Below, one piece after another: positions 56,559 through 62,442 of a DNA stretch of 64,000 bases (the stretch's first letter is position 1; every line of letters begins with the position of its first letter). The stretch is from an uncultured Coriobacteriaceae bacterium (GTDB lineage Bacteria; Actinomycetota; Coriobacteriia; Coriobacteriales; Eggerthellaceae). A model generated the notes under the pieces. That model was given only the letters and a program-made list of their open reading frames with translations, was not told the origin of the DNA and made no database searches. The stretch is from positions 62,001 through 126,000 of the forward strand of contig CACXMZ010000002.1 of assembly GCA_902768975.1 (NCBI GenBank), given 5' to 3'. A program made the translations under genes and the position numbers.

Positions 56559-56768
56559 ATGACGGACCAGAAAAAAGTAATGACTCCGGAAGAAATTCTT
56601 GAAGCCGCAAAAGGCGAAGGCTACGAGCTTTCTGACGACGAACTTGAAATGGTTGCCGCAGGCGGTGAATGGGTAAACGAAGCCTGCCCCAATTGTGGTC
56701 ATACGGGCACCATGTATTGCCCTGGCACGGGCGTGTCCAGGTGCGGCAAGTGCGGTTCTACCTGGTAG
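56559..56768 (+). CDS. Nif11-leader RiPP precursor-like peptide 1 (Cys-rich core)
   Basis: 69 residues. The leader MTPEEILEAAKGEGYELSDD...EMVAAGG is a Nif11-type leader ending in a double-glycine site (residues 35-36). The remaining 33 residues start EWVNEACPNCG and contain five Cys (43, 46, 54, 62, 65), two of the pairs as C-x2-C, giving a zinc-ribbon look. It ends in Thr-Trp like peptide 2. AAAGGA precedes the ATG. No modification enzyme is directly beside it; the candidate enzymes are at 58.6-63.2 kb. A double hairpin follows. It could also be a non-secreted zinc-binding small protein. Confidence 0.65.
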   Translation: MTDQKKVMTPEEILEAAKGEGYELSDDELEMVAAGGEWVNEACPNCGHTGTMYCPGTGVSRCGKCGSTW

Positions 56769-57009: not shown

Positions 57010-57993
57010 ATGGCTGCCAACAGCAAGCAGAAACTAAAGCTTCTTTACTTGTATAAAATGCTCGACGAACAGACCGATGCCGAACATGGTCTGTCCATGG
57101 CGCAAATCCTCGAAAAACTTGAAGAAGAAGGCATTTCGGCCGAACGCAAGGGCATTTACCGCGACCTGGGCATCCTGCGTGAATTCGGGTGCACCGTCAA
57201 CACCATTCAGCGCATGCCCGTTGAATATACGATGGAAAAAAGCGGGCTTGATCTTGCCGAACTTACCCTGCTTTCCGACGCCGTACAGTCGAGCCGCTTC
57301 CTTACCAAGCAGACTGCCGACCGCCTGAGCAAAAAGGTGGCAGCACTCGCTAGCGTGCATGAACGGGAAGCCTTGTGCGGACGCGTGCATGTGGATGGCC
57401 GCGTGAAAAGCCAGAGCGATTCGGTTTTCTACAACGTGGACACCATCCACGCCGCCATACGCGAAAAGAAAAAGATAAGCTTCCTGTATTACAAGTACGA
57501 CACGAATGTTCAGCCGGTCATCCAGCACGGCGGCAAACCCTATGACCTGACGCCCGTGCAGGTGGTGTTTGCCGACGGCTTTTATTATTTGATTACCTGG
57601 TCGGACAAGCACGAAGACTTCGTGCGCTTCCGCGTGGACCGCATGCGTCTGGTGCAAGTGGGCGCGGAAGCTGCCACGCGCAACCAACGCATTGCCAACT
57701 ACAATCTGGAAGATTTTGCCTACCAAGCCTTTGGTATGTACGACGGCGAAGTGACGAAGGCCAAGCTGCTCGTGGCGCCCGACGCCATGGATGTTGTGGT
57801 CGACCGATTTGGCACCGACCTGCGCGTTAAGCGCATTACCGACGGCAGTGCCGAAGTGGCCGTGACCGTGCGCAAGAGCGCCCAATTCTTCGGTTGGGTG
57901 GCGGGAACCAATGGCGCCATAAGCCTTATTGGCCCTAAGGCGCTGGTCAAGGAATACAAATCCTGGTTAAAGCAGCTGCTGAAGAAGGTTTAG
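57010..57993 (+). CDS. WYL-domain transcription regulator
   Basis: 327 residues. An N-terminal helix-turn-helix (about 8-70, with SMAQILEKLEEEGISAERKGIYRDLGILREFG) precedes a WYL ligand-binding domain (about 140-225; AAIREKKKISFLYYKYD and LTPVQVVFADGFYYLITW) and a WCX-like C-terminus. Such proteins sense nucleic-acid or other ligands and often control defence or accessory loci. The ATG at 57010 has GGGGG upstream and TATAAT at 56967-56972 fits its promoter; the frame opens earlier without support. The stop overlaps the convergent gene at 57990 by four bases. Confidence 0.85.
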   Translation: MAANSKQKLKLLYLYKMLDEQTDAEHGLSMAQILEKLEEEGISAERKGIYRDLGILREFGCTVNTIQRMPVEYTMEKSGLDLAELTLLSDAVQSSRFLTKQTADRLSKKVAALASVHEREALCGRVHVDGRVKSQSDSVFYNVDTIHAAIREKKKISFLYYKYDTNVQPVIQHGGKPYDLTPVQVVFADGFYYLITWSDKHEDFVRFRVDRMRLVQVGAEAATRNQRIANYNLEDFAYQAFGMYDGEVTKAKLLVAPDAMDVVVDRFGTDLRVKRITDGSAEVAVTVRKSAQFFGWVAGTNGAISLIGPKALVKEYKSWLKQLLKKV

Positions 57994-58493
57994 GTACGTT
58001 TCCAGCAAAGGTCGTATTGCTGATTTGTTTTGAAGCCCGCCTCGTCCAGGTCAGGCACCATAATAACGCGAGCACGTGTGTCCACGTCACCCGACCAGAT
58101 GGCGGTCGGCCGCGGGTCTAAGCGCATGACCACGTCGCCATGTTCGAAGCGCAGCACGGCAAGACCGTCTTCATACCATGTGTTAGTTAAGTCGTCCCAA
58201 AGGCGGAAATTTTCGAGCACCATATTGTCGTTTTCTACCAAGTCGAGCCGTGGAGGCATACCTTGAAATGAAAGCGACAACACCAAGCGTCCTTCCAAGT
58301 ACACAGGCCCCGAGCTCGGAGCAATGCTTTCGAGGAGGGCATGGTTTGGCACACTAAGTTGCTCTAATGCGAGGCGTGGAGCGCCAAGCTGTTTTTTCGC
58401 TCCGGCTTTTGCTACTGTAGCCCTCTTTTTCGTTCCAGGTTTTGACGCCCGTGTTTGTTTCTGTGTTGTATTCGTTGTATTTGTACGTCCCAT
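57990..58493 (-). CDS. Hypothetical protein with basic N-terminal tail
   Basis: 167 residues from the ATG at 58491-58493, which has AAGGAGA upstream; the frame starts earlier without a site. The first 45 residues are Lys/Thr/Gln-rich and disordered. The rest has a beta-rich look (GPVYLEGRLVLSLSFQG, MVLENFRLWDDLTNTWYEDG, HGDVVMRLDP). No family recognised. It lies 115 bp downstream of the HipA-like gene on the same strand, after a palindromic repeat, so it may or may not belong to that operon. Confidence 0.5.
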   Translation of the reverse strand: MGRTNTTNTTQKQTRASKPGTKKRATVAKAGAKKQLGAPRLALEQLSVPNHALLESIAPSSGPVYLEGRLVLSLSFQGMPPRLDLVENDNMVLENFRLWDDLTNTWYEDGLAVLRFEHGDVVMRLDPRPTAIWSGDVDTRARVIMVPDLDEAGFKTNQQYDLCWKRT

Positions 58494-58584: not shown

Positions 58585-58609
58585 AACACAGGGGACAGTT
58601 CCCTGTGTT
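58585..58609. repeat. 25-bp REP-like palindrome, copy 1
   Basis: AACACAGGGGACAGTTCCC then TGTGTT. It is an imperfect palindrome and identical to the copy at 63237-63261. It begins at the stop codon of the HipA-like gene (58608-58610, read on the minus strand). Confidence 0.85.
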
Positions 58610-59789
58610 AACCCTGAACAATTTCCTTCACGTAGTCGCGCTGCGCTACAAACACACGCGAAACGAGGTCTGCGAAGGCGGGCGGCAGACTCTGGCAGGA
58701 TGCGAATGCATCCTTGACGGCGTCTTCGAAGCCTTCAAGTTTTCGCATGTCACACCAGGACCAATCCCACGACGGGTCTAAGAAAGAAAAGCGTTGCGCA
58801 CAAAACAAATTAACAAGCACGGGGTTTTCGCAATAATACGAAAGAGGAGTCCCGTCGAGCGGAATACCGAAAGCGCCGTCGTAGTCAAAGATGGGTGCCG
58901 CACGCCACACGTCCGTGCTGATTTTGCGTATGGCGCCGACGTTGCCTACGTTGAAATCCGAAAAAAGCGCAAGGCAGGCGAAGCATGCCCGCCTGGCTAC
59001 GTGGGACGAAGCGTCCTCAATTCCGATAGCAGTATAGATATCGACAAGGGCGTCGCATGTCTCCGCCCTCATGCCACCTCCGGCAAAAACGGGACTTTCC
59101 CACGCGTCCACTATCGCGCAGAGCCTGTTCCCGTTGGCAAGTTCTTCGTCGGGGGCAAGCATGAGCGGGCTGACCGAGCAAGGCCTGCCAGAGCGCTCCA
59201 CTACATCCAGGGGAATGAAGTGCCCTTCGCCAAAAAGCAAGGAACATAGTTCGGCACCCAACTTAGCCCCTGCGAGTTCCGCACCATCGGGGTATTCAGC
59301 AGCTTTGACAAGGTAGATGCCTTCGCCGTTGCGCTCCCATGCTTTAACAGCATGACCAGACGTCGTGACTTCAGGAACATTGGGCGAAGCGTCCGCTAGG
59401 TGTGCGTAATCACCCGTAAGAACCGCTTCACCAAAGCTCGGGTCCCAAGCATTGTCGTGGAAGTTCACGTCCTTCCAACCCTCTGTGCTGCCAGGGCTGC
59501 GGTACCAAAGCTGGTCGGTGAGAGAAACACCATGCCCCATGAGGACAATGTCAACAGGCGACCTTGCTCCAAAGGCCGCAAGAATGTCGTCCTTGTCGCT
59601 GCGAAGGGGCGAAATAGCCCGCCTTAACACGAGCATCGACAAAAACCGGTCACTGTTTTCTTGGGTCAGCCCAAAAGAAGAGGCCAGGCTGCTGTTCAGC
59701 ACATTGACGATATGTGCTTTGCCCGTTACCGGGTCAACGTCGAAGTCGACCAGCTCTTGGTCGCCTTGCATGAGTGTGCGCCTGACCAT
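58608..59789 (-). CDS. HipA-like kinase
   Basis: 393 residues. The N-terminal part has MGHGVSLTDQLWYRSPGSTE and WKDVNFHDNAWDPSFGEAV, typical of HipA-like proteins of Gram-positives. Kinase-like elements follow: a candidate ATP lysine in GIYLVKAAEYPDG, a catalytic-loop candidate SDFNVGNVGAI, and a metal-binding FDYDGAFG. No HipB-type DNA-binding antitoxin is adjacent. It starts 21 bp after a Nif11-leader peptide gene, so a role in modifying or regulating that peptide is possible; ATP-dependent phosphorylation is inferred. The ribosome site before the ATG is weak. A palindromic repeat begins at the stop. Confidence 0.6.
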   Translation of the reverse strand: MVRRTLMQGDQELVDFDVDPVTGKAHIVNVLNSSLASSFGLTQENSDRFLSMLVLRRAISPLRSDKDDILAAFGARSPVDIVLMGHGVSLTDQLWYRSPGSTEGWKDVNFHDNAWDPSFGEAVLTGDYAHLADASPNVPEVTTSGHAVKAWERNGEGIYLVKAAEYPDGAELAGAKLGAELCSLLFGEGHFIPLDVVERSGRPCSVSPLMLAPDEELANGNRLCAIVDAWESPVFAGGGMRAETCDALVDIYTAIGIEDASSHVARRACFACLALFSDFNVGNVGAIRKISTDVWRAAPIFDYDGAFGIPLDGTPLSYYCENPVLVNLFCAQRFSFLDPSWDWSWCDMRKLEGFEDAVKDAFASCQSLPPAFADLVSRVFVAQRDYVKEIVQG

Positions 59790-59810: not shown

Positions 59811-59981
59811 CTACCAGGTTTCGTTCATGCAGTTATACCATGCGCCACCTGCGATGGAATCAAGCTGCTCTTCGGTGAGTTCGATGCCTTCGGCTTCGGC
59901 GAGCATAACTAGTTCGTCGGCATTCTTGCAGGCGCGTGCCTTTTCCATTTGTTCAGGAGTTAATTCGTTTATGCTGGCCAT
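59811..59981 (-). CDS. Nif11-leader RiPP precursor-like peptide 2
   Basis: 56 residues, read directly from the minus strand. The leader has INELTPEQMEKARACKNADE and then LAEAEGIELTEEQLDSIAGG, a Nif11-type helix pattern with Gly-Gly at residues 45-46. The short core is AWYNCMNETW: two Trp, one Tyr and one Cys in ten residues. AGGTAG precedes the ATG. It sits between paralogue B (66-bp gap) and the HipA-like gene (21-bp gap) on the same strand, so it is embedded in a likely operon. The Trp-x-Asn after Gly-Gly and the Thr-Trp end are shared with peptide 1. Confidence 0.75.
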   Translation of the reverse strand: MASINELTPEQMEKARACKNADELVMLAEAEGIELTEEQLDSIAGGAWYNCMNETW

Positions 59982-60047
59982 CTTCTACCTGCTTCCCGTC
60001 GGAGTTGGTTTCGAAGTCTTGCTGTAACTTACGACTATTTTACGCTG

Positions 60048-61046
60048 CTACAAACTAATTCGTCCTGCTTGTAGGTAAATCTTCGTGTCGAAAACCTTGT
60101 CTGCACGCACGCGAAACTTCGCATACAGGGGGATGCAGTAAAGCGCTTGCGAAACTGTGCTGTTTTGTATCGCCTTCGAAAACATGGTGTCTGGAATGTG
60201 CTGCAATCGGGCATCGGCGACGTGTGAATTCACGGCGAATTCCATAAGCCGTGCCGCAGCACCACCAGGTTCCCAAGGCGGGCGCGCCGTGCTTGCGGGC
60301 ACAAGGGGAAGTTGGGCGGAAATACCCACGGTTTGCCCGAGCCTTTCGTTAGAAAGAAGGTCGAACTGAAGCTCCATGCCGAAGGGCGATGCAGCCACTT
60401 CAGCACCAACGTTGCGGACCGCTGGGCCTTCAACGGCAAAGCCAATATTCTGGAAGTCTTCCTCAAGCTTTGCAGGGTCGGCTGCATACGTGCGTTTTAG
60501 GTCCTTGTTAACGAAGCAGTCAACTCGAACGGGAGCGCCTGGCCTGCCTGGATGCACGCCGAAATACCACACGCGCCAGCCCTGCGGAAGGCGCTTTATG
60601 AAGCCCTGATAGAGCTCTGCTGCTTCGGGCCTGCCCACGTGTGCGAAGAAACCCTCGGCGTCGAAAGCATTGGCAGCATTCACATTGACGTGCACGGCGG
60701 GGGCTTCAATTCGGCCTTCGCCTACGTCGTACGCGAGCGCGATGCCGCCGCCTTCGCGGGGTGCAGATGCATACCAATTCAACAGTTCACCGTGGCCGTC
60801 CAGAGCACTCGGAGTAAAGGGGGCATACTCATGTATACCTTCGTTACTGTAGGCAACATGCAAGTCGAAACGCGGCGGGCCAGTAAGCGGAATCTCGAAC
60901 CAGAGGATGGGCGCCAAGGCGCCGAGCGAAGCACGCTGGCATGCCTCTTGCGCGAGCAGGGTGCTCGTTCCAAATAGGTCGTGTTCTACCTTCTTGGAAG
61001 CCAGGCGGTACAAGGTTTCGTACGCTGTGGTTGCTTCGGCACTCAT
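60048..61046 (-). CDS. Unknown enzyme-like protein, paralogue B
   Basis: 332 residues from the ATG at 61044-61046, which overlaps the stop of paralogue A as ATGA and has GAGGTGG upstream; translation is therefore coupled. It shares several blocks with paralogue A: FEIPLTGPPRFDL, FGVHPGRPGAPVRVD, LEEDFQNIGF, MELQFDLL, and a C-terminal FRVRADKVFDTKIYLQ. The alternation of amphipathic helices and strands and the final K-x-YL strand are compatible with an ABBA-type prenyltransferase fold, but no motif proves it. It precedes a Nif11 peptide gene. Function unknown; peptide modification is a hypothesis. Confidence 0.55.
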   Translation of the reverse strand: MSAEATTAYETLYRLASKKVEHDLFGTSTLLAQEACQRASLGALAPILWFEIPLTGPPRFDLHVAYSNEGIHEYAPFTPSALDGHGELLNWYASAPREGGGIALAYDVGEGRIEAPAVHVNVNAANAFDAEGFFAHVGRPEAAELYQGFIKRLPQGWRVWYFGVHPGRPGAPVRVDCFVNKDLKRTYAADPAKLEEDFQNIGFAVEGPAVRNVGAEVAASPFGMELQFDLLSNERLGQTVGISAQLPLVPASTARPPWEPGGAAARLMEFAVNSHVADARLQHIPDTMFSKAIQNSTVSQALYCIPLYAKFRVRADKVFDTKIYLQAGRISL

Positions 61047-62065
61047 GCTTCCACCTCGCCAGCAGAGAATCTGAGATAGAACTTCGCCGGCTGCGCAACG
61101 CCCCCAGCAAACTTGACCTTCGCGTAGTTGAACAGGCAACAAAGGGCGAACCTGCCCGTGGTCCCGTCTTCGCGGTCGAATGGCACATGGCGCGCTAAGG
61201 CTGCGCCCGCAATAAGCTTCCAGCGATTGTCTGCAAGCCCCCAGTCCTGCAAGATGCTACAGAGGTGGGCACCGTAGCCGCTTTCCATACAGGCGCGAGC
61301 TTCGCGCGGTTTCGTTTCATTGAACGAAAGTGACAAGCCGAATATGTCTCTGAGTGTTCCGTCGGGCATAATGTCGAACTGGAAGTCGATGGACGGTGCA
61401 AGCGTAAGGAAGGTACTGCATTGTTCGAGCATTTCACTGTTGTAGGCGGAAAAACCAATTTGGTCGAACTGCGCCGCAAGGAGTGCAGGATCCTTAGCGC
61501 ATGCCTTTTGAATGTCGCCTGCCAGATAGCCTCCGATACGCATCGGAGTGCCCGCCCGTCCTGGGAAGAGGCCCACATAGGCTGGCGGCCAGCCTTCGGA
61601 CATGCGGTCGGCTACTGCGAGGAAGCTTTCCGTCCGGGCGCCTTCGCCGATGGATTCCAGAAAGGGCGCAATTAGATTTTGGTGTTTGCGGTACTGCAGG
61701 TACACGCCTGCGCGTTCGGTTTCGCCAGCCGATGTATCCAGCTCGATCCCGCAACTCGCATTAACGCCTGTCGCGCAAACATCTGCAAACCAGTCAAACA
61801 TTGCCTGGTAGCCAAAGCCCGCCCCTGGTGCGAACTTGGAGCCGGGCTGCATGCTGTGATGGACCGAAAGCAAGTCGAAGCCCGGAGGACCAAAGAGAGG
61901 AAACTCTAGGTAAGCATCTGGATAGTCGTCGCCTATGAGCGTGCGTTCGTAAACGCTCCGCGCGATGTCGAAGCTATTCCCGAACAGCGCTTCACCCCTG
62001 CCGTCTTTTGCGGCAATTAAATACAGCGCATCGAACACCGTCATCTGAGATGGTTTTCCAGCCAT
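61043..62065 (-). CDS. Unknown enzyme-like protein, paralogue A
   Basis: 340 residues from the ATG at 62063-62065; an ATG seven codons later is also possible, and neither has an ideal ribosome site. It is homologous to paralogue B, with LEFPLFGPPGFDL, VGLFPGRAGTPMRIG, LLAAQFDQIGF, SIDFQFDIMPDG and a C-terminal AKFYLRF. First gene of the minus-strand operon A-B-peptide 2-HipA-like. No signal peptide or membrane segment. The family was not recognised. A tandem pair of related proteins with a precursor peptide suggests two modification steps or a heterodimer. Confidence 0.55.
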   Translation of the reverse strand: MAGKPSQMTVFDALYLIAAKDGRGEALFGNSFDIARSVYERTLIGDDYPDAYLEFPLFGPPGFDLLSVHHSMQPGSKFAPGAGFGYQAMFDWFADVCATGVNASCGIELDTSAGETERAGVYLQYRKHQNLIAPFLESIGEGARTESFLAVADRMSEGWPPAYVGLFPGRAGTPMRIGGYLAGDIQKACAKDPALLAAQFDQIGFSAYNSEMLEQCSTFLTLAPSIDFQFDIMPDGTLRDIFGLSLSFNETKPREARACMESGYGAHLCSILQDWGLADNRWKLIAGAALARHVPFDREDGTTGRFALCCLFNYAKVKFAGGVAQPAKFYLRFSAGEVEA

Positions 62066-62223: not shown

Positions 62224-62442
62224 ATGGCACACGATAACACCGACAACATGTCCAACGACGTGAAGGCGAAGCTGCGCGGCTGCGAGACTGCCGACGAGAT
62301 CGCAGAACTCGCCCAAGAGGAGGGCTGCGAGCTCACCGACGAACAGCTCGAGAGCTTCTCCGGCGGCTGGGCGGGCAAATGCGACGACTATACCTGCACC
62401 AGCGACACCTGCGATACGTATACAAAAAATATAGGCGAGTGA
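62224..62442 (+). CDS. Nif11-leader RiPP precursor-like peptide 3 (periodic Cys)
   Basis: 72 residues. The leader (SNDVKAKLRGCETADEIAEL then CELTDEQLESFSGG) is a clear Nif11-type leader with Gly-Gly at 47-48. The core starts WAGKCDDYTCTSDTCDTY: Cys 53, 58 and 63 are spaced every five residues in an Asp/Thr/Tyr-rich context. GGAGGA precedes the ATG. The next gene, 39 bp downstream, is a QueC-like enzyme. Codon use favours GAG, unlike most of the window, so the pair may have been acquired together. Confidence 0.75.
   Translation: MAHDNTDNMSNDVKAKLRGCETADEIAELAQEEGCELTDEQLESFSGGWAGKCDDYTCTSDTCDTYTKNIGE

Follow-up and report, generated by a model that had tools for sequence, protein, structure and literature searches.

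A conserved precursor peptide

The window analysed here, a stretch of 64,000 nucleotides from an uncultured Coriobacteriaceae bacterium (the source genome), carries on its minus strand a short open reading frame (ORF) squeezed between two larger genes. This raises the question of whether the ORF is a gene at all and, if so, what its neighbours make of the product. A preliminary description had taken it for an overlooked 56-residue precursor with a ribosome site, a Nif11-type leader and the ten-residue core AWYNCMNETW, located with short gaps between one of two paralogues (gene B) and a HipA-like gene (Hip).

According to the ORF list and its translation, the frame (59811–59981, minus strand) starts with ATG and encodes 56 amino acids, MASINELTPEQMEKARACKNADELVMLAEAEGIELTEEQLDSIAGGAWYNCMNETW*. 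The leader, residues 1–46 with Gly-Gly at its end (59981–59844), is followed by the core AWYNCMNETW (59843–59814) and the stop codon (59813–59811). A Shine-Dalgarno-like sequence, AAGCAGGT, can be read 5 nt before the ATG (59987–59994, minus strand), and a similar purine-rich sequence precedes the ATG in relatives of the peptide. The gaps are short, as described: 66 nt separate the frame from gene B and 21 nt separate it from Hip. Scans of the sequence for promoters gave numbers near the shuffled level (2 versus 1.8) and those for terminators were modestly above it (9 versus 5.4); neither signal was detected between gene B and the peptide.

The peptide possesses both a double-glycine leader end and an L(X)4L stretch before it (LTEEQLDSIAGG), the latter reading LTEEQL. 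The assignment to Nif11-type leaders stands for the family rather than for the single sequence. Taken alone, the peptide scored below the curated cut-offs of Pfam Nif11 (16.2 bits; cut-off 23.8) and TIGR03798 (18.6 bits; cut-off 32.3), while 16 of 17 aligned members of its leader family matched TIGR03798 at E ≤ 0.01 (best 7.3e-10) and 14 of the 17 matched Pfam Nif11.

The search for the same short ORF in relatives, as proposed in the preliminary description, recovered intact frames in ten other Coriobacteriales genomes belonging to different families, with a near-invariant core [AST]WY[NSD]CMNETW. The exact DNA pattern W[YF]xCMNETW, applied to a collection of 84,980 species (by the description of the tool), matched 10 stretches, every one of them a Coriobacteriales record: nine are named 'uncultured Coriobacteriaceae bacterium isolate RUG...', where RUG presumably denotes rumen genomes, and one is a sheep duodenum isolate. 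All 10 stretches encode the full leader and core. Five of these ten genomes were also reached via the flanking genes without the core pattern, as judged by contig and position: the search with Hip led to G036 (genome labels here and below are ours), whose peptide ends in SWYSCMNETW, and the search with genes A and B plus a leader profile led to G057, G200, G145 and G273, with cores all of the form [AS]WY[ND]CMNETW. Across the 11 intact cores, variation is confined to position 1 (A/S/T) and position 4 (N/S/D); for the five genomes found only by the pattern, positions 2, 3 and 5–10 were fixed by the pattern itself, which allowed F at position 3. Over these genomes (55 pairs), the leader gave a pN/pS ratio of 0.262 and the core one of 0.076, the latter value coming from a genome set partly chosen by the core pattern; synonymous sites were close to saturation. 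By these ratios the peptide is under purifying selection.

Loss of the frame in relatives that retain the neighbouring genes had been named in the preliminary description as the refuting outcome. Instead, seven other genomes (G036, G273, G200, G145, G304, G305, and G308) have the frame intact immediately before a close Hip orthologue. The counter-case is G271: its frame before Hip is interrupted within the leader, and its core is the diverged NWIDCLNETW; since G271 is a draft assembly, the break may represent either an error or decay. The AWYNCMNETW ORF is a real, conserved precursor peptide.

Gene order around the peptide

The complete order A-B-peptide-Hip occurs in five of the 11 genomes with an intact core, namely the source genome, G200, G273, G304, and G308. 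Shorter versions are A-B-peptide followed by the contig end in G057 and B-peptide-Hip in G145. Overall, A/B genes are located upstream of the peptide in 7 of 10 testable genomes (G307 is cut off by a contig end), and no A/B gene was seen beside it in the stretches examined of G036, G305, and G306. Hip lies downstream in 8 of 10 testable genomes, G057 being untestable; the stretches examined of G306 and G307 showed no Hip beside the peptide. In a twelfth genome, G271, A-B and the broken-frame peptide are on separate contigs, the peptide standing just before Hip. A/B genes are present somewhere in all ten pattern-found genomes versus 23 of 297 genomes of the order. This conserved order supports the functional link that had been proposed from position in the window.

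Further close Hip genes were found in G002 and G034, as additional copies in G057 and as a second copy in the source genome. They are neighboured by other leader peptides or NHLM genes, or have no intact leader that could be found. Downstream of Hip in the window, a 166-aa protein (57990–58490, minus strand) is of doubtful membership in the unit: it had no relative in the 64 loci scanned and no match in Pfam or NCBIfam.

Genes A and B

Gene B (60048–61046, minus strand) encodes 332 amino acids and gene A (61043–62065, minus strand; start uncertain) about 340. The two proteins of the window are 25–26% identical and form one family. The ATG of gene B overlaps the stop codon of gene A (ATGA), and the limits of gene B were therefore set at 60048–61046; the alignments and the structural model used 60048–61040, leaving off the first two residues, so that numbers such as E49 count from there.

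Neither protein has a match in Pfam or NCBIfam. Together with 51 relatives, 0 of 53 sequences matched a prenyltransferase model in Pfam, or any meaningful Pfam model at all, and a profile search of PDB sequences with the A/B alignment returned no related sequence, only two chance matches. The AlphaFold2 model of B, built from 53 sequences, has a mean pLDDT of 95.5, a pTM of 0.92 and five alpha-alpha-beta-beta units. Foldseek returned 34 matches with this model at E ≤ 0.001 (best 5.5e-6), all of them aromatic or indole prenyltransferases; the cyanobactin enzymes KgpF and PatF ranked below the bacterial indole enzymes, at positions 48–49 (E 0.05). In VIA-align, the best matches over the whole length of B were CymD, MpnD, NphB, IptA, and PriB with Z scores of about 15–16 (CymD: Z 16.0, rmsd 4.3, 280 residues), and KgpF reached Z 13.9. 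Sequence identity of B to solved prenyltransferases is 4–14%, and 6–13% to the bacterial indole and aromatic enzymes in the top VIA-align rows. Gene B is thus predicted, from the model and the fold searches, to have the ABBA fold of aromatic/indole prenyltransferases, and the same fold is predicted for gene A from its membership in the alignment. The identity of the operon, which the preliminary description had not seen, is that of a predicted pair of prenyltransferase-fold genes.

Seventeen polar or aromatic columns of the A/B family are conserved at ≥80%, and ten are invariant in 53 of 53 members (E49, D59, W89, D105, W155, Q225, R278, K308, K320, and Y322). Candidate diphosphate-binding residues, placed by alignment and not from a donor complex, are R278, K308, K320 and Y322 (all in 53 of 53) and R172 (51 of 53). 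An [ND]Dxx[DE] stretch is found in just 9 of the 53 members. The units contain two clear orthologue groups, 76–81% identical to A and 69–71% identical to B of the window, with 25–28% identity between the groups. Since no member matched a Pfam prenyltransferase model and no related PDB sequence was found by profile, A/B are regarded as the same fold in a new sequence family, which is unnamed in the model libraries used (Pfam, NCBIfam).

The HipA-fold kinase

The HipA-like nature of the gene downstream of the peptide (Hip; 58608–59789, minus strand; 393 aa) was borne out by modelling and fold searches. The model (pLDDT 84.9) matched HipA with a Foldseek E value of 5.6e-10 (4pu5) and a VIA-align Z of 21.2 over 338 residues (3dnt). 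Residues K162, D278, N283, and D302, which we take to be catalytic, are invariant in all 10 Hip members. Curated Pfam and NCBIfam models gave Hip no name; HipA_C was touched weakly by 3 of the 10 members (best E 0.014).

We counted as close those Hip relatives that score above 250 bits, a line drawn where the ranked scores show a gap. Of the 297 genomes, 11 have such a relative, and all 11 also carry A/B genes. Two of the close Hip genes lie inside NHLM loci (source contig C5 and G057 contig C120), and that of G134 is located, by coordinates, just after NHLM genes. Hip shares its fold with HipA kinases (E. coli and Shewanella HipA; CtkA) and differs from them in having a precursor peptide just upstream, no antitoxin seen, and a close clade whose sampled members all come from A/B genomes. 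A HipBA toxin-antitoxin module was considered and rejected: no HipB-type antitoxin was seen adjacent to Hip, the upstream gene is the precursor peptide and the downstream gene is the 166-aa protein described above.

The leader family

The peptide is one of a set of precursors spread over the genome, which could not be seen in the preliminary description. The source genome yielded 17 matches to it at E ≤ 10, of which about 16, including the peptide itself, are credible leader peptides, and another genome contains 31 leader-family matches. The strict motif L(X)4[LM] is present in 37 of 45 leader peptides. Tryptophan follows Gly-Gly in all rows of 17 aligned leader peptides (13 from the source genome, four from others). 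With a leader-only profile, Trp was found within four residues of Gly-Gly in 81 of 92 distinct peptides, compared with 0.029 per position further on. The proportions were 15/16 in the source genome, 35/37 among the top rows and 31/39 among the weaker rows; profiles containing this Trp had served to pick part of the sample, which favours the rule, and the weaker rows are the fairer sample. The misses among the latter include one peptide without a usable core and one with Trp before a second GG. A control with NHLM genomes lacking A/B had no power: it offered two distinct peptides to score, and both lack Trp in the four residues after Gly-Gly.

Two sister precursors with the same leader are encoded in the window on the plus strand. 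The first (62224–62442), divergent from gene A, has the core AGKCDDYTCTSDTCDTYTKNIGE after GGW; a core ending in NIGE that resembles it occurs in G266 (locus L193). At 39 nt after this precursor, a gene (span to 63228) displays a weak match to QueC, a PP-loop model (21.4 bits; cut-off 22). The second (56559–56768) has a zinc-ribbon-like C-terminal part and a counterpart in G034 with 81% identity. Such C-terminal parts with CxxC pairs occur on several same-leader peptides (also L010:12418–12720, L043:4899–5171, L198, L208, and L212).

The core WSC[DS]SFGERSDCHLNQWYE is almost identical in the source genome (L014:8470–8664, contig C1), G266, G293, G034, G134, and G057 (further loci L157, L158, L159, L162, and L179); accordingly, several cores of the leader family, not AWYNCMNETW alone, are conserved across families. 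In G200 and G271, the gene immediately before A encodes another conserved precursor, with the core DSWWCPTATSCPNYE[VI]MR (L088:7486–7677, L087:7133–7324; also L165). The precursor upstream of A in the window differs from it and is divergently oriented. A hypervariable, prochlorosin-like core was rejected, given the near-invariance of AWYNCMNETW and of other cores in the family.

Exporters and radical SAM genes

The source genome has three genes above the cut-off for NHLM1, an exporter with a C39 peptidase, none of them inside the A-B-peptide-Hip unit. Among the same 297 genomes of the order, A/B genes were found in 23, NHLM1 above the cut-off in 38 and the leader family, counted at E ≤ 1e-10, in 25. 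NHLM1 is present in 22 of the 23 A/B genomes (G029 is without it) versus 16 of 274 others, and the leader family in 22 of 23 (G037 misses the line) versus 3 of 274 (G054, G225, and G261). The Fisher values of 4.8e-22 for A/B with NHLM1 and 5.2e-29 for A/B with the leader family are too small, because the genomes are related and the leader query was drawn from A/B genomes. The leader family, the A/B genes and NHLM C39-peptidase exporters co-occur.

Source contig C7 carries a radical SAM/SPASM gene next after a leader peptide, with NHLM transporter genes within 9 kb. None of the NCBIfam models listed for this enzyme reached its cut-off (best TIGR04463, 171.5 versus 525 bits), and related radical SAM genes were found in 6 of the 40 A/B stretches examined. 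A fuller version of the system is found at the large locus L046 (G057 contig C120), where two leader peptides and two Hip genes are accompanied by the pair of NHLM transporter genes, one radical SAM/SPASM gene and the gene of a GGDEF protein. A deacetylase-like gene, with a weak match to BshB1 (35.3 versus 182.5 bits), is present in two NHLM/Hip loci (L039:9325–10047 and L046:17416–18102; 75% identity).

Comparison with known systems

The closest precedent is MppC/MppE of Moorena producens, where the ABBA-type prenyltransferase MppC depends on a Nif11-like leader, the L(X)4L motif being part of this requirement, and attaches a geranyl group to a single Trp of the core (PMC12715784). Features in common would be an ABBA-type fold beside the precursor, a Nif11-like leader, L(X)4L before the core, and a short Trp-containing core. 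The Moorena pathway differs in that ring closure by a lanthionine synthetase comes first and a single prenyltransferase is at work (PMC12715784). The system described here has two diverged prenyltransferase-fold genes, a HipA-fold kinase, many dispersed precursors and Coriobacteriales hosts. A lanthionine synthetase is absent from the unit; neither A, B and Hip nor the 166-aa protein matched a model of such an enzyme in Pfam or NCBIfam.

The cyanobactin prenyltransferases KgpF and PatF (8ye0, 4bg2) have the same overall fold as that predicted for A/B. Enzymes of this group act on RiPP cores (PMC13290415, PMC11002830), and do so without a leader and after macrocyclization (PMC12715784). In the structures of CymD, MpnD, NphB, IptA, and PriB the substrates are small molecules or free Trp derivatives, whereas A/B occur with RiPP leaders. 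Prochlorosins, Nif11-leader precursors of marine picocyanobacteria that are modified by a LanM, resemble our set in having many precursors per genome under a common Nif11-type leader (PMC10783134). The system here departs from prochlorosins in that the core studied hardly varies between families and in the A/B prenyltransferase-fold genes that go with the leader family. Searches of the open-licence PMC literature found nothing joining Nif11, HipA and RiPP, nothing on RiPP precursor peptides of rumen Coriobacteria, nothing linking Coriobacteria with Nif11 and, by title, nothing relevant on prenylated RiPPs in gut Coriobacteria.

A proposed pathway and its alternatives

From the observed ORF, its conservation, the gene order, the folds and the co-occurrence we infer a route that would run from an isoprenoid donor to the use of an exported product. 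The ORF would be the precursor of a Nif11-type RiPP, whose leader, with its LTEEQL stretch, would recruit the modifying enzymes to the core. A and B would most likely attach an isoprenoid to these ten residues, probably at the first Trp, close behind the cleavage site, or else at the Tyr or the second Trp. Hip may phosphorylate the peptide or regulate the pathway, and we make no firm claim for its role. A C39 peptidase domain would then remove the leader after Gly-Gly and NHLM transporters encoded elsewhere in the genome would export the product. This product may serve as a conserved signal and not as a bacteriocin that diversifies. On balance, we favour a core prenylated by ABBA-fold A/B, freed of its leader and exported by NHLM transporters as the probable reading. 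A fold is not an activity, and the 4–14% identity to solved prenyltransferases and the lack of any Pfam prenyltransferase match among the 53 members count against this reading. The same is true of the peptides of G036, G305, and G306, which lack adjacent A/B, of G306 and G307, where no Hip adjoins the peptide, and of G271, which keeps A-B with a broken peptide frame. The Trp near Gly-Gly is in its favour and could equally reflect the radical SAM enzyme or the peptidase.

The peptides without adjacent A/B, together with the fixed Cys of the core, would also suit a Nif11/NHLM RiPP precursor modified mainly in trans by a radical SAM/SPASM enzyme, for example with a Cys or Trp cross-link, while A/B serve other precursors or act as peptide-binding accessories. 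The radical SAM/SPASM gene that immediately follows a family leader peptide in the source genome, and its relatives in A/B stretches, argue in the same direction. We consider this unlikely: there is no radical SAM gene within the A-B-peptide-Hip unit, A and B adjoin the peptide in most testable genomes, and both enzymes may act. In some lanthipeptide pathways, kinases phosphorylate residues and the phosphate is kept or eliminated. Hip as the central modifier, phosphorylating Thr9 or Tyr3 of the core with either outcome, would agree with its place after the peptide in 8 of 10 testable genomes, with its invariant presumed catalytic residues and with the restriction of close Hip genes to A/B genomes. 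It is nevertheless improbable, as no lyase was seen in the unit and G306 keeps the peptide without Hip beside it; by contig coordinates G306 appears to be the same as G266, which is not among the Hip matches. That the ORF is a chance or decaying frame between two genes is hardly credible. The failure of the peptide alone against curated leader models and the broken relative in G271 fit such a frame, but ten intact relatives, the conserved core and position, and purifying selection speak strongly against it.

With prenylation as the preferred reading, the system points to an undescribed family of exported lipid-tagged peptides. More tentatively, and with considerable doubt, it might represent an undescribed RiPP class of gut and rumen Coriobacteriales, characterized by large dispersed Nif11-leader sets, Trp near the cleavage site, a new ABBA-fold family occurring as an unlike A-B pair, and a dedicated HipA-fold kinase. 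AWYNCMNETW would then be a conserved prenylated signal, which we liken in function to ComX, readable across families of the order.

The ABBA-fold peptide prenyltransferases known so far are mainly cyanobacterial. A tandem A/B family unseen by Pfam and tied to Coriobacteriales leader peptides would widen the enzymology of peptide lipidation, and the up to 31 leader matches per genome offer ready natural substrates for work on specificity. The role of a conserved, probably exported, lipidated ten-residue peptide in gut communities would become directly testable.
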